Part shown: piece after piece, positions 16,064 through 28,397 of the stretch
Position numbering within the stretch: position 1 is the stretch's first letter
Layout of the letters: the number at the start of each line of letters is the position of its first letter
IMG/VR virus record: IMGVR_UViG_3300031857_001040
Location: 1-28,397 of that record
DNA from: a virus
DNA length: 28,397 bases
Strand: one strand, 5' to 3'
Program-made: the position numbers and the translations under genes
Notes under the pieces: generated by a model
Told to the model about the DNA's origin: nothing
The model's database searches: none
Seen by the model: only the letters and a program-made list of their open reading frames with translations

Positions 16064-16266
16064 TCGTCTGTTTTCCTGTGCTTACTGACCACAAAAACAA
16101 GGTCTTCGGCGTCCACTAACCGTAAAGCTTTCCATTGTTCCACTCCATGCACTCGAATCACATAGCACACTCGTTGTTCATTAGACGCTCTAATGATGTT
16201 CTGAAGTCGCACAACGTCACACGTGCGGCCATTCCACGTCGCAAGTGAACCAGAGCGGTCATTCAT
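16060..16266 (-). CDS. Unknown 68-residue operon protein
   Basis: Beta-rich small protein (residues 28-65: EQRVCYVIRVHGVEQWKALRLVDAEDLVFVVSKHRK). It starts inside the end of the IbrA-like gene (8 bp overlap) and ends with a GTGA overlap into the nuclease gene, so it is translated with both. No family recognised. Confidence 0.6.
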   Translation of the reverse strand: MNDRSGSLATWNGRTCDVVRLQNIIRASNEQRVCYVIRVHGVEQWKALRLVDAEDLVFVVSKHRKTDE

Positions 16267-17476
16267 GTGACAAACCTTTTTCTAGTTTGCGTTTTGCTCG
16301 CAATTCCTTAAACGTCTGGTATGCGTCTGAAAGTGGCTGCGACTGCCCCAGTCCCTTGCACCAGTAATCATTTCGCAAAAGAACCTTGCACATTCGTCTC
16401 CATGATGGTGCCCAGCATTTAACCTCAAGCTCATGCGGGGCTTCATCGGGAATAATCGTGTATCCTCGATGATGCCATCCAGCAATAAACTTTTGAAAGC
16501 GAGCCACGTAATGTGCGCGAGTTTTTGCAGGCATGGTCCGCAAAAGCAGATTGCAGAATGATTTCCATGTGTGCCCGTCTGGTTTGCAAATCTTGTTGTA
16601 CCCGGTCATGTTGCCAGTCTCTTGGATGTACAACGCTCCGCTATTAACACCGTTTACACGGACGACAAGTTTGTACCATGTCTGAGGCTCAAGAATGTGA
16701 TAAAGCCACAACCCTTTACGCTGATCATCGCCATATGGCTGACACAACCGTTGCTGGCTGAGAGGTACGCCAGCCTTTGTCATTTGGTCGTAAATGCGAT
16801 TGTGATGCTTGTCTGGGTTCTTTCCGTGGTACACCCAAATATCTTCAACACGCCAGTCGTATATCGGGTAAATGTTGTACAGGCAGCGAGCAACTTTTGT
16901 TGTCCACTTGTGGCCATTGGCCATTAAACCATCTTTCCGTGAAACGATCGCGCGGTATCGATGCAATGACTCGTCAGACCTAATTCCGATGAATGCACCA
17001 GTTTTTCTTCCTTGTGCGTACCACTCACCAAAAATGACCATGAATTCTTCGAATTCCATCTTTGGAACATAGAAATCGTACTGGCTCAGATCTGCAGCCA
17101 GTGCAGGTTTTTCACGAACCCAGATATCCTTCTTGTCTTCATCCCAGCAAATCCATCGTGGCTGGTAGTTTGAAACGGCGTTCCTCAGCAACATTTCAGC
17201 GCACACCCAGTGAAGTTCAATGTGTTCTGCGTACTGGGTTACCATTTCCTCAATATGTTTGATCGTATCGGAATACTGAGCTTCGAGGTCTATTACCAAA
17301 ACGCCGACCTTGCGATTCCGTAGTTTTGCTTCATCCATTACTAGATGAAACATAACTGAACTGTCCTTACCACCGGAAAAGGAAATGTACAGCCGTTCGA
17401 ACATGTCAAAGGACTTCGCGATTCGCTCGCGAGCTTCGTCTAACACGGAGGTCAGTAGTTGCACCTTTTTTGTCAT
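16259..17476 (-). CDS. IbrA-like PAPS-reductase/DUF3440 protein
   Basis: 405 residues from ATG 17476, which shares one base with the IbrB-like stop (TGATG); the longer open frame to 17554 overlaps that gene. The P-loop-like I-S-F-S-G-G-K-D-S-S (residues 31-40) is the ATP-pyrophosphatase signature of PAPS-reductase-type proteins. Downstream, G-I-R-S-D-E-S and P-I-Y-D-W-R-V-E-D-I-W-V-Y fit the same group, and the long C-terminal part matches the DUF3440 type. In E. coli, IbrA and IbrB are paired prophage-type genes affecting expression of other genes. The biochemical reaction is not established. Confidence 0.8.
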   Translation of the reverse strand: MTKKVQLLTSVLDEARERIAKSFDMFERLYISFSGGKDSSVMFHLVMDEAKLRNRKVGVLVIDLEAQYSDTIKHIEEMVTQYAEHIELHWVCAEMLLRNAVSNYQPRWICWDEDKKDIWVREKPALAADLSQYDFYVPKMEFEEFMVIFGEWYAQGRKTGAFIGIRSDESLHRYRAIVSRKDGLMANGHKWTTKVARCLYNIYPIYDWRVEDIWVYHGKNPDKHHNRIYDQMTKAGVPLSQQRLCQPYGDDQRKGLWLYHILEPQTWYKLVVRVNGVNSGALYIQETGNMTGYNKICKPDGHTWKSFCNLLLRTMPAKTRAHYVARFQKFIAGWHHRGYTIIPDEAPHELEVKCWAPSWRRMCKVLLRNDYWCKGLGQSQPLSDAYQTFKELRAKRKLEKGLSHE

Positions 17477-18633
17477 CAGTAAATCTCCACCTGTCTGCCA
17501 TAGGATAGGGCAGAGTGCATGTCGAGCGTTTCCATTCCTCGAGCTTGCAGCCAACTGTTTAACGCTTCTAACGCAGTCTGATTTGCAGCTTCCTGCTGTT
17601 CGATCGTAAGCAAGTTAAAACCAGAGCAAAACTGACTGGGAATGCCACGAGCAACGCACATCGCAGCCTGACCCAGCCATGCAATCCGGTTCATGGCTAC
17701 GTTTGTGAGATAGTGTTCGCAGGAGTGCGGCCATTGCTCAAAGACCTTTACCAGTGCGTCAGCAAATTGCCGGGTGTCCGATAGGAAAGCCGCGTATTCA
17801 TGCTGGCACTGTTCCTTAGTTTTCCCATCAACCGTCGAGGAATAAAAACCAGCTTTGACGCACTCCCATTTGTCGTGTGTGTGGAACACCCTGTTGGGGT
17901 CAGAAGTATTGGCCGTTCTGACGGCTGCTCGCATCTCATCTGTTACCTCGTCAGTCAGTTCAATGAAGTCATCCGTTGGAGAGCTGTCAGACGCTTCCCA
18001 CGCTCGCGAGAAATCATGGTCTGTAAACAGGTGTTCCAGTCCAGTGATTTGGCAGAGGCGCAAGATTTCGTCCTCATCCATTCCCAGTTCTTTTGCGATG
18101 CGTTTATTGGTCCAATTACGGTTCTTCAGCTCCAGAACAATCTCTGACATTGCGTCTACCTGATGCTTTCCTCGTGCCCTGTTGTGGCGAATGGTTGACG
18201 CAATGCGATCATTCTTTCCCTGCTGTTCTTTGCGAATTTCTACGACTGGCAAATAGCCTTGAATACGCTGAGCGACAAGTTTTGATTCCTTACCAACTCG
18301 CGACCTGTGAAATCCGTCAACTACTTCGTGCGCGTCGTCTTTAGCCCACGTGACGATTGGTTGTGTGTAACCGTCATTTACAATAGATACTTCCAGCAAT
18401 TCCATTTCCGGCGGTGCAACCTTATTAGGGTTGTATTCGTTTGCAGTTACGTTCGCGGCTGGAATCCACACGACACAATCAACTGGCTCATTTGCAAACG
18501 GTGATATCGCGTGCAGTTTGCGTTTCACGTTATTGATTGCCGCCACCTTCTGAGGCATGTCCATCATCTCTATTTCATTAAGCAGCATGTTTACCGTGTC
18601 AGAAATGCTGCATGTGCATCTTTCTATACTCAT
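17476..18633 (-). CDS. IbrB-like ParB/sulfiredoxin-fold protein
   Basis: 385 residues. An N-terminal coil (12-45) leads to a ParB/Srx-like domain with N-E-Y-N-P-N-K (65-71) and V-D-G-F-H-R-S-R-V (105-113), the nucleotide-binding or nuclease-type motif of the superfamily, then a helix-turn-helix-like part (WTNKRIAKELGMDEDEILRLCQITGL, about 174-199) and a helical C-terminal extension. Partnered by one-base overlap with the IbrA-like gene. DNA binding is likely from the HTH; the extension to 385 residues is longer than typical IbrB proteins, as far as I recall. Confidence 0.75.
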   Translation of the reverse strand: MSIERCTCSISDTVNMLLNEIEMMDMPQKVAAINNVKRKLHAISPFANEPVDCVVWIPAANVTANEYNPNKVAPPEMELLEVSIVNDGYTQPIVTWAKDDAHEVVDGFHRSRVGKESKLVAQRIQGYLPVVEIRKEQQGKNDRIASTIRHNRARGKHQVDAMSEIVLELKNRNWTNKRIAKELGMDEDEILRLCQITGLEHLFTDHDFSRAWEASDSSPTDDFIELTDEVTDEMRAAVRTANTSDPNRVFHTHDKWECVKAGFYSSTVDGKTKEQCQHEYAAFLSDTRQFADALVKVFEQWPHSCEHYLTNVAMNRIAWLGQAAMCVARGIPSQFCSGFNLLTIEQQEAANQTALEALNSWLQARGMETLDMHSALSYGRQVEIY

Positions 18634-23602: not shown

Positions 23603-23604
23603 AG

Positions 23605-23688
23605 TCTCGATCGGGAGAGTCGAACTCCCACTCCGGTTAAGGAACATGCTCCTGAAGCATGCGCGTCTACCAATTCCGCCAGATCGAG
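23605..23688 (-). tRNA. tRNA-Leu (anticodon CAG)
   Basis: 84 nt. Acceptor stem CTCGATC/GATCGAG, discriminator A, T8, a D arm with GGAATTGGTAGAC, anticodon stem CATGC-TTCAGGA-GCATG (anticodon CAG), a long class-II variable arm (TCC/GGA) and T arm GGGAG-TTCGACT-CTCCC. The A discriminator is the leucine identity base. CCA is not encoded (CTG follows). Every stem pairs, so it appears functional. Confidence 0.9.
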
Positions 23689-23762: not shown

Positions 23763-23899
23763 CTTAGCACTAAGGGTAGGGGTGACCTCTATTCAAGGCC
23801 GTTTCGGTGGTTTTGCCTGACCGGAATGTTGTAGATACTGCGATTTATTCGGTTGAAGGACAATACACCGGACGGAGTCTCTACTTTGTGGAGACAATT

Positions 23900-24766
23900 A
23901 TGAAAGTGCTCGCATTTGCTAAACGCTACGTCGATGACCGCAAACTACAGAAGACGCCTATCTATTCAGCGGCGCGATTCATTCGCATCGTGAAAGACAT
24001 AGATATCGCCAACATTACGGAACGTCACCTGAGTGAGTTTCGAACAAAAGCTTTGGCTGAAGGGCTGTCGCCGCACACAGTCAAGGGATCACTGAAAGAC
24101 CTGCGAACGCTAATCAGGTCCACCGGTCGGCAAATCAAGGTTGAACGGGTGCGAGTCCCGCAGCCAGATCCGCACCCAGTGCCACACGCTCACATTGATC
24201 TGATTTGGCCGTGCTTGTCGTTGTGGGCTCAGCAGTGGCTGGTGTTTGCCTTATGGACTGCTGCCAGGCTGGATGATGTCATTAGACTGCAGCAACAGTT
24301 GACCGCAACAACGTCGACGCTGGCACTGACGGCATCGAAGACAGGTCATCGCCACGAATGGCCAGTGCCGACATGGCTGCAAGGGTGGCTGAGTCCGCAG
24401 CGGTTACCCTATGGGAAAAGTTACGACTGGTCTGGGCATTTGGTCCGTCAGGCATTGCACGCAGCGTCGAAATGTTGTGGTATTCCTGACGTACTTCCGA
24501 ACCATGTGAGAGACAGAGCACTGACAGAATGGTCACGAGCAGATCACACAGCGTGCGAGGTTTTGCACGGTCAGTCGCTCGGGACGCTGCGACATTACCT
24601 GAGCCCACTGGAAATTCTGTCGGCGGCATCTCCACGTGTGAAACTGCCGGCTTGTTTCGATGCGGCGACGGATTCCACGTCCCGATTGATTAATAGTTTC
24701 AATCGATTAGACCCCAGCGCCCAAGGTCTCATCGTCGACACTACCGAGCGTTTAGCCCGCTCATGA
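23900..24766 (+). CDS. int: Tyrosine recombinase (integrase)
   Basis: 288 residues from ATG 23900, with GGAG nine bases upstream; the longer open frame has no ribosome site. The N-terminal SAM-like domain (1-80) includes I-T-E-R-H-L-S-E-F-R. Catalytic candidates: R123 (AARLDDVIRL), K147 (SKTGHRHEWP), N201/H202-V-R204, H223 and Y233 (LRHYLSP). The first box-II position is Asn-His rather than the common His-x-Leu-Arg, so the enzyme is divergent. It should integrate and excise the phage with the excisionase-like protein. It lacks the features of an integron integrase. Confidence 0.75.
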   Translation: MKVLAFAKRYVDDRKLQKTPIYSAARFIRIVKDIDIANITERHLSEFRTKALAEGLSPHTVKGSLKDLRTLIRSTGRQIKVERVRVPQPDPHPVPHAHIDLIWPCLSLWAQQWLVFALWTAARLDDVIRLQQQLTATTSTLALTASKTGHRHEWPVPTWLQGWLSPQRLPYGKSYDWSGHLVRQALHAASKCCGIPDVLPNHVRDRALTEWSRADHTACEVLHGQSLGTLRHYLSPLEILSAASPRVKLPACFDAATDSTSRLINSFNRLDPSAQGLIVDTTERLARS

Positions 24767-24905: not shown

Positions 24906-25097
24906 ATGCGAGAACACACAGCCAAAGACGGTGTAATCAAACGACCGGATAACTACGTCCCGACGGTTGAAGAACAGGCCGAGCAGGAAGCGATTCGTCG
25001 ACAAATCGACGAAGAACGCACCGCAATTGATTGCATTGATCAGCGCGGGCAGTATCGACATCCGCGAAAATTCACGCTCCGGGAGGTAATGCGATGA
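24906..25097 (+). CDS. Small charged protein before the lipoprotein gene
   Basis: 63 residues, highly charged and helical (VPTVEEQAEQEAIRRQIDEERTAIDCI). An in-frame stop lies two codons upstream of the ATG at 24906, so this start is forced; no clear ribosome site. The end overlaps the next ATG as ATGA. Not recognised. Confidence 0.5.
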   Translation: MREHTAKDGVIKRPDNYVPTVEEQAEQEAIRRQIDEERTAIDCIDQRGQYRHPRKFTLREVMR

Positions 25098-25504
25098 AGT
25101 GGTATTTGTGGCTTGTAGTCGCTGGTTTTCTCTGCGGTCTCACAGGCTGCACCGCAGAAGACAAGGCCGGCTTCTCAATCGATCTGTCAAACCTCAACTG
25201 GCAGACGGTCGCAATCATCGGTGCGGCTTTGCTCACGCCTTTTCAGTCGCTGCTAAAGCCGGTACTCATGGCATTGCAGCCGATCGTTTCAATCCTGCAG
25301 AAACTCGGAATACTGCGAAAACCCGCAACACCGGACGACACGCCGGGCGAATTAACGATAGCGGAATTCATCGCGATCCTGACGGACTTGCTTAGCAAGA
25401 CCAGCGATCCAGTGTTGAAAGGCCAGATCCTCGGGCTGATATCGACTGCTGCAGGCGTTGCACCTGAGGTCAAGGGGGCGGCCAGTGCCAGCAAAAGCAA
25501 GTGA
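25094..25504 (+). CDS. Lipoprotein-like membrane protein, holin-like candidate
   Basis: 136 residues. N-terminal signal with lipobox L-T-G-C19, then a hydrophobic stretch at 35-66 (VAIIGAALLTPFQSLLKPVLMALQPIVSILQ) and a helical end. First of a compact set that ends in a papain-like peptidase gene. A holin or envelope anchor is possible, but the lipobox is unusual for a holin; its membrane role is clearer than its function. Confidence 0.5.
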   Translation: MKWYLWLVVAGFLCGLTGCTAEDKAGFSIDLSNLNWQTVAIIGAALLTPFQSLLKPVLMALQPIVSILQKLGILRKPATPDDTPGELTIAEFIAILTDLLSKTSDPVLKGQILGLISTAAGVAPEVKGAASASKSK

Positions 25505-25862
25505 GCAGCCGGAATCGAATCCGCTGCTGCTGTTTATCTTGGTAGTTGCTGGCGTCTGGTTTTTCAATCGGGACGCTGCGCCGACACCAGACCCACAACC
25601 ACCCGAGCCAGTTGTTAGCGACGTTCTGCAGGATGCCTACGACGCTGATCGAAAGACTCAGGTTGCCGTTTTGCGGGAACTTGCACAGCAGCCGTTTGAT
25701 GGTGCGACGGACGATGGCCGGCGGCTTGCCGGGGAATGGTTCAATAAGCAGCGTTTTCGCAATCGGGCGGATGATTTTGGAGCCTATACGGACGTTGTTG
25801 CAGAAGCCATTGCGACGAACACCGAAAGCGAACTGGCTGCGAAACTGGAGGTGAAGCCGTGA
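25485..25862 (+). CDS. Single-span membrane protein with exported domain
   Basis: 125 residues from GTG 25485 with AAGGGGGCGG upstream, overlapping the lipoprotein gene by 20 bp. Residues 11-29 (NPLLLFILVVAGVWFFNRD) form one transmembrane helix; a proline-rich linker (PTPDPQPPEPVV) leads to a helical domain. The layout resembles spanin-like or lysis accessory proteins, but no family motif is present. Coupled to the peptidase gene by GTGA. Confidence 0.5.
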   Translation: MPAKASEQPESNPLLLFILVVAGVWFFNRDAAPTPDPQPPEPVVSDVLQDAYDADRKTQVAVLRELAQQPFDGATDDGRRLAGEWFNKQRFRNRADDFGAYTDVVAEAIATNTESELAAKLEVKP

Positions 25863-26686
25863 ACGAACACCACACAGGCGGCTGGCGCATCGATCTGGAA
25901 CGCTTTGACGTGCTTGCTGCCTTGCCGGCGGAAGATCCAGTGCTTGCCATGCGTGGCACTTACAACGAAGTCAGCGTAGATCCTCGGTCAGTTCTCCGCG
26001 TTGAAAATCAGGGCTCCGTCGGAAGTTGTCAGGGGCATTCAATCAGTTCGTCATGCGAGTGGTGTTACGTCATCGCAACACGTGATGAAGACCTGCAACT
26101 AAGCCGTGCTTACGGTTATTACGAAACGCAGCGGCTTGACCAAATCAGCGGAGACCGTGGAAGCACGATCGAGGGCGGTATCCGACTGGCTACAGAATTC
26201 GGGATCTGCCGTGAGGAACTGTGGCCGTACTCGGGACGATACGAACCGACGAGGCCGAAACCGATTGAGGAACTGCGAAAAGACGCAGCAACCTACAAAA
26301 TCGGCAAATCCTACAAGCTTACAAGCTACGATGGCATTCGCACGTTTCTTGGATCTGGACAGGGTGCGGTGCATCTCGGGATCACATGGAATTCAAGCGT
26401 CGATGCTGCGGTGGTCAACAACTACAGCGGGGCTCAGGGTGGCGGACATGCCATCAGCCTGTATTCGCTGTCGGATCGCAAAGACTCACAAGGCAGGCCG
26501 TACTGCTGGATGATGAATTCGTGGGGCAAAGGCTGGGGGAATACTGGCTGGGCTGAGTGGTCTCCAAACGCAATCAGCCAAATGCTCACCAGTCGCTGGG
26601 CTGTGTTTGTCGGTGTTTCTGACATGCCAAACGTCAGGCCACGTGAGTTCACTCTGGCGGATCTGAAGAAGTCTCTGAGGATCTGA
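25859..26686 (+). CDS. Papain-like (C1-type) cysteine peptidase
   Basis: 275 residues from GTG 25859, with GGAGGTGA upstream. The active-site signature is complete: Q51-G-S-V-G-S-C57-Q-G-H-S (oxyanion Gln and nucleophile Cys), G-G-G-H197-A-I-S-L, and N220-S-W-G-K-G-W-G. No signal peptide; the N-terminal 45 residues may be a short pro-region. Papain-fold enzymes hydrolyse peptide bonds; here it could be a lysis enzyme, a virion processing protease or an anti-host factor. The gene lies between single-span membrane and lipoprotein genes. Confidence 0.85.
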   Translation: MNEHHTGGWRIDLERFDVLAALPAEDPVLAMRGTYNEVSVDPRSVLRVENQGSVGSCQGHSISSSCEWCYVIATRDEDLQLSRAYGYYETQRLDQISGDRGSTIEGGIRLATEFGICREELWPYSGRYEPTRPKPIEELRKDAATYKIGKSYKLTSYDGIRTFLGSGQGAVHLGITWNSSVDAAVVNNYSGAQGGGHAISLYSLSDRKDSQGRPYCWMMNSWGKGWGNTGWAEWSPNAISQMLTSRWAVFVGVSDMPNVRPREFTLADLKKSLRI

Positions 26687-26687
26687 T

Positions 26688-27662
26688 ATGCGTTATCTCA
26701 TTGCAATCATCCTGCTGACTGGCTGCGTCGATGCAACGCAGCAAGCCAGCATCGAAGAAGCAAAGCAGCAGCTTCGCGCCGCATCGGTATTCGTGGAGGA
26801 TGAGCCAATAATCCCCAACACTATCGCACTGCAGGCGATTCGCACGAAATTTAACGAACCCTCCGAATCAGAACCAGCGGTTGAACCTGAGCCGGAGGAC
26901 ACACCGCAACCTGCCTCCGGGCTTCCAGATCCCGCTGGTTCTGATTTTATTGAGCCGGTTCCTGAGCCGTCGATCACCTTTAGCCGTCCTGTGCAGTCCG
27001 GGCCGGTGGCAACGCTCTACACGTCGGACGGCTCGTTCGTGTGCGGTGGGTGTATCACGCAAGAAAGAATTCTTTCGCAGGAAAAGATTCCTTTCGATCT
27101 GTATGCAATCGAGAAGGTGAACGCCGAAACGGCTGCAGCCATGGGTGGTGTGCCGCGATGGATTCCATACGACAAGTCGGCAAGCTATCCCGGGGCAAAA
27201 TCGAATGAGACGTTGCTGACATGGTTCAACACGCTCAAAACGTTTCGTGACGGAAGCACGCCTGTCGCGTGTGAAGTGATCGGGGGGGCGGTAACGGTGG
27301 ATTCCGTTGCCGCTGCTCTGACCGCTCATTTAAGTGATGAGGCGGCACAACAGCCGTTCGGAAGCCTACTGAATATCGACATTGATGCACCCGATACTGC
27401 GACGGCTGCGGTATTCACAATAATTGAAACGGGCCGATATGCAAACGCGACAGTTGGAATCGCTTTCGACTGGTCGGCTTCCACCCGCACCATCAGCGAC
27501 ACAGCCAAAACCATCACACTAAATCCACCGGCCAAAATCACGCTCACAAAATGGCGGGCAAAATGGTCTGCGGCATTGCGTGGCATACAGTACGACTCGG
27601 CGGCTAAATCGGTGACGCTGCTGCTTTTAGGTGCGCCGGATCTGACTGTGAGGTTTCAGTGA
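26688..27662 (+). CDS. Lipoprotein with thioredoxin/glutaredoxin-like CGGC segment
   Basis: 324 residues. Lipobox L-L-T-G-C13 predicts membrane anchoring. Residues 55-100 are Pro/Glu-rich (a spacer). Then V-A-T-L-Y-T-S-D-G-S-F-V-C119-G-G-C122 and, later, G-G-V-P-R-W-I, the CxxC and cis-proline pieces of a glutaredoxin-like fold. The C-terminal 150 residues are beta/alpha with Thr-rich strands. Coupled to the peptidase gene by one base. An envelope redox or redox-coupled lysis role is conceivable; unusual for a phage. Confidence 0.6.
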   Translation: MRYLIAIILLTGCVDATQQASIEEAKQQLRAASVFVEDEPIIPNTIALQAIRTKFNEPSESEPAVEPEPEDTPQPASGLPDPAGSDFIEPVPEPSITFSRPVQSGPVATLYTSDGSFVCGGCITQERILSQEKIPFDLYAIEKVNAETAAAMGGVPRWIPYDKSASYPGAKSNETLLTWFNTLKTFRDGSTPVACEVIGGAVTVDSVAAALTAHLSDEAAQQPFGSLLNIDIDAPDTATAAVFTIIETGRYANATVGIAFDWSASTRTISDTAKTITLNPPAKITLTKWRAKWSAALRGIQYDSAAKSVTLLLLGAPDLTVRFQ

Positions 27663-27976
27663 GTGCGATATTTCTGGAACGTGATCGAACTGAAATTGTC
27701 GGGGAAATGCTTCGTAAGTTCGAGTGTGAGGAACTGCCGGCATTCGCATGGAACGACCGAAAAGAACCAAAGGAAAGACGGAAAAAACGTGCATTGTGTA
27801 TCGCAACATTGGAGGAGTTCGAGCGGGTGCTGGAGCGAGCCGGAGCACCAAAAACGCGACAGGAAGCAATCGACGCGATTTATCCTCAGGGAATTGGATA
27901 TGTGTTGATGTGGATCATTCTGAGGGCGGTGGTGGCTAAAATTGTCGGATGGCTGTGGGACAGGACGCAGGCATAA
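27659..27976 (+). CDS. Small protein with C-terminal hydrophobic helix
   Basis: 105 residues from GTG 27659 with GAGG upstream, coupled by GTGA to the lipoprotein gene. Charged N-terminal two-thirds (RKEPKERRKKRALCIATLEEFERVLERA) and a hydrophobic C-terminal helix (VLMWIILRAVVAKIVGWLW). Tail-anchored or amphipathic; no family recognised. Last gene of the 25 kb-28 kb set. Confidence 0.55.
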   Translation: MSAIFLERDRTEIVGEMLRKFECEELPAFAWNDRKEPKERRKKRALCIATLEEFERVLERAGAPKTRQEAIDAIYPQGIGYVLMWIILRAVVAKIVGWLWDRTQA

Positions 27977-28295: not shown

Positions 28296-28397
28296 ATGTG
28301 GATAAACAAAATAAACGCAGAAGTGCTGCGAGAGGTGCTGCAGGAATCGCCCTCCTGTTACATGATCAGTGGTCTCGACGGCGAAATTTACTGGGCA
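28296..28397 (+). CDS. PAS-like protein, N-terminal part (3' end outside window)
   Basis: 34 codons visible from ATG 28296. The protein starts with a helix (WINKINAEVLREVLQES) and continues P-S-C-Y-M-I-S-G-L-D-G-E-I-Y-W-A, which has the look of the beginning of a PAS sensory domain (..vidldGrI.ya). The GGA at 28284 is the only ribosome-site-like sequence. Too short to be certain. Confidence 0.35.
   Translation, partial: MWINKINAEVLREVLQESPSCYMISGLDGEIYWA

Follow-up and report, generated by a model that had tools for sequence, protein, structure and literature searches.

Xylellain of Xylella fastidiosa (PDB 3ois) is a bacterial papain-like cysteine peptidase of family C1A, whose members are protein endopeptidases. 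It is the best match, in both sequence and fold, to the phage peptidase described here, and it has the same set of Gln, Cys, His, and Asn residues and a similar size. Proteins of the same fold with 27–29% identity to the phage peptidase are found in uncultured Caudovirales (A0A6J5RCA6 and A0A6J5TCZ4), in PHROG 16701, named "peptidase" (E 1.4e-7), and in LR756511, a 595 kb phage. The records consulted give them neither a function nor a lysis context. Virus and provirus lysins with a thiol-peptidase fold, fitted to a non-standard wall, are represented by the archaeal pseudomurein endopeptidases PeiW and PeiP (family C71). Membrane-bound thioredoxin-like proteins of the TlpA/ResA type hold an anchored CxxC domain that faces the periplasm. 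The gene block described here is located in IMG/VR virus record IMGVR_UViG_3300031857_001040 (positions 1 to 28,397, referred to here as the window), which is a genome fragment (28.4 kb) from a siphovirus-like phage. It encodes a C1A peptidase among small membrane proteins and a lipoprotein, on the + strand and 3' of a tyrosine recombinase gene. The preferred reading, with a probability of roughly 0.55, is that the block is the lysis cassette of a planctomycete phage and that its endolysin slot is held by the papain-like protease. The observations behind it are the gene structure, selection on the genes, the catalytic residues, the C1A fold, the association with membrane proteins and lipoproteins, the planctomycete hosts, and the absence of recognised wall hydrolases. 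A thioredoxin domain is present in the best-conserved partners of the peptidase.

The papain-like peptidase and its family

Gene C (25859-26686, + strand) encodes the peptidase of 275 amino acids, which has no signal peptide or transmembrane segment. It begins with GTG and is preceded by a strong Shine-Dalgarno sequence, GGAGGTGAA. The product scores 37.5 bits (E 3.5e-9) with Pfam Peptidase_C1 (PF00112), for which the cut-off is 20.7, and this is the only Pfam profile that matches it at E up to 1. The NlpC/P60 and CHAP profiles match nowhere in the window. The catalytic set follows the papain order and consists of Q51 (oxyanion hole), C57 (nucleophile), H197, and N220. An alignment of homologues places the codons from Q51 to C57, the start of the family hallmark QGxxGSCQGH, at 26009-26029, the codon of H197 (GGHA motif) at 26447-26449, and that of N220 (MNSWG motif) at 26516-26518, all on the + strand. 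The C-H-N signature claimed for this protein in an earlier note on the window is thus present as C57, H197, and N220, with the oxyanion glutamine in addition. H197 and N220 are invariant across 19 homologues with identity down to 28%. Most of these homologues were retrieved with a pattern that already included Q51 and C57, so the invariance of these two is by construction. Conservation independent of the search motif is found at H197, N220, S82, a GDxGST segment, and other positions.

The best PDB sequence match of the gene C product is xylellain, with E 3.9e-12. An AlphaFold (AF2) model made with the 19 homologues has a pLDDT of 87 and a pTM of 0.88. Foldseek places this model closest to xylellain (E 3e-15), followed by C1A cathepsins, with E values of 1e-10 to 1e-15. 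The structure comparison with the C1 and C39/NlpC families that the earlier note had proposed thus has an answer: both sequence and fold are those of C1A. Kinship with NlpC/P60 or C39 was rejected, since the Pfam profile and Foldseek both give C1A. By sequence and model, gene C encodes a C1A papain-family peptidase with a two-domain papain fold, for which proteolysis itself is predicted. None of the 29 peptidases from non-redundant loci has an N-terminal hydrophobic segment.

Within the known family the peptidase forms a new branch, marked by the hallmark QGxxGSCQGH and present in more than 50 viral contigs. A DNA pattern for the hallmark retrieved 60 viral stretches. About 50 of these encode homologues, most of them 258–293 amino acids in length, while the remainder are a few short chance frames that are clearly unrelated. 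A profile-based scan gave 55 loci. A search of GenBank phages for close relatives of the peptidase returned a single distant match. Three loci (L017, L018, and L019) have an otherwise nearly identical cassette with a strongly diverged peptidase (SCAGHS, SCRGHS), which argues that the position matters and that the enzyme is exchangeable. HNH-endonuclease-like open reading frames (ORFs) are located directly 5' of the diverged peptidase gene (L017:6711-7190 and L018:6570-7190), an arrangement consistent with peptidase replacement by homing.

Phages of 157–179 kb contain a second protease in the cassette, a matrixin-type metallopeptidase encoded three genes before the papain-like gene. The copy at L138:7302-8204 matches Pfam M10 with E 2.3e-36; it also has a "cysteine switch" (PRCGCPD) and a domain for peptidoglycan binding. 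A similar matrixin-type gene is located about 1.8 kb 5' of the peptidase at L140.

Cassette setting, hosts, and the thioredoxin-like partner

The neighbours of the peptidase gene were counted over 28 non-redundant loci. The product encoded immediately upstream has an N-terminal transmembrane segment or a lipobox at 20 loci, and the product encoded immediately downstream is secreted or lipid-anchored at 20 as well. The background for membrane or lipid anchoring is 16 of 283 ORFs (6%). The membrane and lipoprotein setting noticed earlier in the window, with a lipobox (LTGC) in gene A, one transmembrane segment in gene B, and a CGGC segment in lipoprotein D, is borne out. One homologue (L141) has a Pfam holin (PF23987, Phage_holin_10, E 1.3e-13) about 0.85 kb 5' of the peptidase and small membrane genes as neighbours. 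Another (L100) has a PHROG holin match with E 0.0016. In the window clade and in the prophage of Thalassoglobus neptunius, the cassette has a lambda-like position just before the fibre/terminase genes. Genes B (one transmembrane segment) and D (lipobox and Pro-rich linker) have features that suggest spanins, and neither matches a spanin family.

The block has the properties of genes under purifying selection. Compared with relatives L004 and L005, dN/dS is 0.05–0.06 for gene C, 0.06 for gene D, and 0.09–0.22 for gene B; compared with L004 alone, it is 0.10 for gene A and 0.20 for gene F. These values indicate that A, B, C, D, and F are all genes under selection and that C is no chance frame.

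Standard wall hydrolases were searched for directly. Phage_lysozyme, SLT, NlpC/P60, M15_3, and CHAP were found in none of 15 cassette-bearing records, and Amidase_2 in none of 11 phage records; control genomes were positive in these searches. The complete Pfam lists of two relatives, G003 (43 kb) and G402 (39 kb, ORFs of 100–600 amino acids), hold no recognised peptidoglycan hydrolase. The ends of G003 overlap by 1 kb at 84%, so this genome is probably near complete. In G404, G407, G001, and the T. neptunius prophage, no wall hydrolase is among the matches listed (25 families each). The statement that no wall hydrolase is seen, made at first for the window, thus continues to hold in fuller relatives, and the conventional endolysin that might have been encoded elsewhere was not found among the standard families in the 15 records. 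No recognised peptidoglycan-degrading enzyme is present in the block or in the scanned genomes, and the cassette enzyme, although no endolysin in the strict sense, may act in the manner of one.

The hosts were identified from the peptidase. Approximately 85,000 prokaryote species genomes were scanned with a diverse alignment, and all four confirmed relatives are planctomycetes; the same scan with the single window protein as query gave no match. Searches with the terminase, capsid, and tail-tube proteins returned distant matches in mixed hosts and gave no host clue. T. neptunius KOR42 contains an intact prophage of about 45 kb. A tRNA-Arg repeat, at least 40 bp long, flanks it, and an integrase is encoded alongside. 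Its block is located between replication and terminase/portal genes, and the neighbour of its peptidase is a clear thioredoxin. A set of 392 planctomycete genomes gave three further strong matches (E <1e-33) besides T. neptunius. The source phage is siphovirus-like and probably temperate, with a host among the Planctomycetes.

A related block, composed of a transmembrane or lipoprotein gene, a papain-like gene, and a thioredoxin-like gene, is found in three chromosomes with no visible prophage around it (L170:8100-12294, L171:8403-11815, and L172:9058-11771). An ATP-binding (P-loop) gene comes after it in L170 and L171. The chromosomal block is possibly a domesticated lysis module or the lysis locus of a gene transfer agent. 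Its location outside visible prophages also allows a cellular function, and the earlier note had offered an "anti-host envelope factor" as its alternative. Such a factor would modify the envelope or act in superinfection exclusion, altering a host surface or periplasmic protein so as to block competing phages or aid the lysogen. Membrane proteins and lipoproteins are common in exclusion systems, and the swapped peptidases of L017–L019 resemble the behaviour of host-range or conflict genes. The cassette, however, occurs in diverse phages, including those of 157–179 kb, beside holin-like genes and with no other lysin recognised, and if it were an exclusion factor, these phages would have no enzyme for lysis. 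This alternative is considered quite unlikely.

The planctomycete envelope would offer a protein target for a cassette of the preferred kind. Its protein is rich in Pro and Cys and stabilised by disulfides (PMC3035269), and wall preparations contain Cys-rich YTV proteins (PMC8567305). Planctopirus limnophila can do without many of its peptidoglycan genes, while a YTV protein counts among its essential ones (PMC10632474). YTV genes are present in all seven peptidase-bearing planctomycete genomes checked; the 14 control genomes have none. A chronic, non-lytic planctomycete phage is on record, and its paper does not mention an endolysin (PMC10945688).

Gene D (26688-27662, + strand) encodes a lipoprotein of 324 amino acids with an LLTGC lipobox, a Pro/Glu-rich linker, a thioredoxin-like domain, and a C-terminal beta domain. 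The CGGC redox motif (residues 119-122, with C119 and C122) is at 27042-27053 according to the partner alignment. The codon of P156, the thioredoxin cis-proline position in alignment and model, is at 27153-27155; both are on the + strand. An alignment of 14 partner proteins covers the window clade, more distant phages, contigs of planctomycete metagenome-assembled genomes (MAGs), and the prophage of T. neptunius. Only C119, C122, and P156 are present in it without exception, and in thioredoxin these positions hold the CxxC motif and the cis-Pro. Pfam Thioredoxin is above its cut-off in two partners (L090 and L088), found in T. neptunius and a Planctomyces MAG; the gene D product itself has no Pfam match. 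The gene D model has a pLDDT of 52 overall and 65–82 in the region 104-190, where the expected beta-alpha order is found. C119 is directly ahead of a helix (120-130) and P156 is ahead of a strand (157-160). The best PDB matches of this model in Foldseek are mostly thioredoxins, although non-significant (E 0.1–1), and outside the thioredoxin-like region the model is too poor for the beta domain. By eye, a beta gene of about 90 amino acids, separate in other phages, looks as if it had been joined in the window to the C-terminal end of D. The redox part suggested earlier can be narrowed by alignment to a probable thioredoxin-fold lipoprotein, for which a redox role is predicted.

CGGC as an isolated coincidence was rejected, since the CxxC and Pro positions are kept across phage and chromosomal partners. 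At other loci the place of D is taken by a coiled-coil lipoprotein whose tail reads CPGGxCP, or by a short protein with CPGGxC. Secreted cassette proteins contain a recurrent CPGGxCP or CPNGxC motif, often C-terminal, in the downstream lipoproteins of L097, L100, L106, L141, and L134 and in the small proteins of L107 and L084. These motifs are possibly a disulfide-forming tail.

Proposed mechanism and points against it

The best-supported reading is that a cysteine peptidase and a redox part make up a lysis system, as the earlier note proposed. It is favoured by the lambda-like position, the membrane-anchored neighbours, the holin beside one homologue, the lack of a standard endolysin family in the 15 records, and the thioredoxin-domain partner in phage and planctomycete loci. 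The proposed sequence predicts when the block is expressed, that C is exported, what it cuts, a redox task for D, and lysis as the outcome. It would begin with late expression of the block. The small membrane proteins A and B, and perhaps F, would form or control a holin-like lesion through which the signal-less peptidase C would pass the inner membrane. Lipid-anchored D, in which a long flexible linker carries the CGGC domain, would reduce disulfides in the cysteine-rich wall protein layer. Additionally or alternatively, it would keep C57 reduced in the oxidising periplasm. Peptidase C would then cleave the wall proteins that have been loosened in this way, with bursting of the cell as the result.

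That the decisive substrate of the cassette protease is a protein is given somewhat less than an even chance. Equally tentative is the wider idea that coupled proteolysis (papain-like, plus matrixin in the 157–179 kb phages) and disulfide reduction of a cysteine-rich protein wall might burst these hosts without reliance on peptidoglycan hydrolysis, and that cells may have taken over the related chromosomal module.

Several observations weigh against the protease cassette. Window genes A and B have a transmembrane segment or lipobox, yet no gene of the window matches a holin family in Pfam or PHROG. The thioredoxin assignment of D combines an alignment with a low-confidence model. The redox domain is common and not universal, because CxxC is missing from the downstream lipoprotein of many relatives. 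The contigs searched for hydrolases may be fragments. In the clade of L027, L041, and L066, the block is located among head and tail genes, a position that fits a virion role too. A virion or morphogenesis protease, acting in processing or injection, would account for this position. The head genes of G003 and G001 already include a standard maturation protease, however, and the usual neighbours are membrane proteins and lipoproteins rather than structural proteins, which makes a virion role very improbable.

The remaining points concern the host wall. PBP transpeptidases are encoded in the same seven planctomycete genomes, and lysozyme makes planctomycete sacculi fall apart (PMC4432640), so peptidoglycan may still need cutting. 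The peptidase could then be an ordinary endolysin, a C1-fold enzyme released by a holin that cuts peptide stems or cross-links of peptidoglycan, with D as a spanin-like or redox helper. The cassette evidence for this is identical to that for the protease reading. Many known endolysins have a papain-like topology (CHAP and Amidase_5; PMC10318531), and a similar papain fold is found in viral proteins that bear the names "Peptidoglycan binding-like" or "N acetylmuramidase". Against it, the peptidase has C1A sequence and fold and no wall-binding domain, and its nearest folds are xylellain and cathepsins rather than NlpC/P60 or CHAP. An ordinary endolysin is considered unlikely.

Block layout and comparison with known systems

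The genes of the block overlap or abut, and most of their starts have a clear Shine-Dalgarno sequence ahead. All of the following features are on the + strand. A small ORF of 63 amino acids (24906-25097), with a homologue at the same position in L017, has a stop that overlaps the start of gene A. Gene A (25094-25504, 136 amino acids, Shine-Dalgarno GGGAGGTAA) encodes the lipobox, a hydrophobic segment at about residues 36-60, and then a helical domain; its product is a candidate membrane component (holin or regulator). Gene B (25485-25862, 125 amino acids) encodes an N-terminal transmembrane segment, a Pro-rich linker, and a helical domain. Its start is most likely GTG at 25485, rather than the TTG at 25458 given by the ORF tool, because an AAGGGGG Shine-Dalgarno sequence is present there. 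A companion of the gene B type is directly 5' of the peptidase gene in most relatives. Gene F (27659-27976, 105 amino acids), the fifth gene of the block, encodes a tail-anchored protein with a C-terminal hydrophobic segment, and a similar gene has the same position in L031, L045, L100, L138, L140, and L018. Genes A, B, and F fall in no PHROG class, and A has no Pfam or PHROG match. A promoter scan of the block was at chance level, and a terminator scan gave no clear site at its end.

The gene for a PAS-domain protein with a transmembrane segment starts at the window end, which cuts it (28296-28397, + strand). In relatives a PAS-domain protein with a C-terminal transmembrane segment is also encoded 3' of the cassette (L004:10268-10972 and L019:2646-3350), and it is possibly a sensor tied to lysis timing. 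The tyrosine recombinase (23807-24766, + strand, integrase-like, PHROG 1, E 3.4e-6) is 5' of the cassette and outside it. It adjoins a tRNA-Leu(CAG) gene (window 23604-23688) that is absent from G001 and G003, the two relatives checked; it may serve as an attachment site, or it may be a tRNA of the phage. Elsewhere in the window (16259-18633, minus strand), a PAPS-reductase/DUF3440-like gene is located beside a ParB-like gene, named here after the G003 homologues; the pair is kept in the window and G003. G001, G003, and the window show strong mosaicism, with a common tail module and cassette (~87–91% DNA identity) and differing head and/or replication modules.

The wall chemistry of planctomycetes has been disputed for forty years. 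If the protease cassette is real, phage tools would reveal whether the load-bearing wall layer is protein or peptidoglycan, and the enzymes could serve to open or dissect planctomycete cells. The endolysin concept would be widened to a pair of protease and reductase. With its prophage, T. neptunius offers a cultured environmental bacterium in which the idea can be put to a direct test. Phage opening of planctomycetes appears to be undescribed in the open-access papers searched, where the combination of a C1A protease lysin, a thioredoxin-like lipoprotein, and the planctomycete protein wall was not found.

The phage peptidase has about 22% identity to xylellain and differs from it in the Q-G-H that follows the catalytic Cys, in the absence of a signal peptide, and in its cassette of membrane proteins and lipoproteins. 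The likeness to PeiW and PeiP is one of general analogy, and both the family and the substrate (pseudomurein) differ. Compared with a lambda-type lysis cassette, the block shares the position before the terminase, the small membrane proteins, the signal-less enzyme, and the downstream lipoprotein with a Pro-rich linker. It departs from that type in its C1A protease, in having no recognised peptidoglycan hydrolase or spanin, and in the thioredoxin-like domain on the lipoprotein. In contrast to proteins of the TlpA/ResA type, D is encoded beside a papain-like peptidase and, in the window clade, has an extra C-terminal beta domain.

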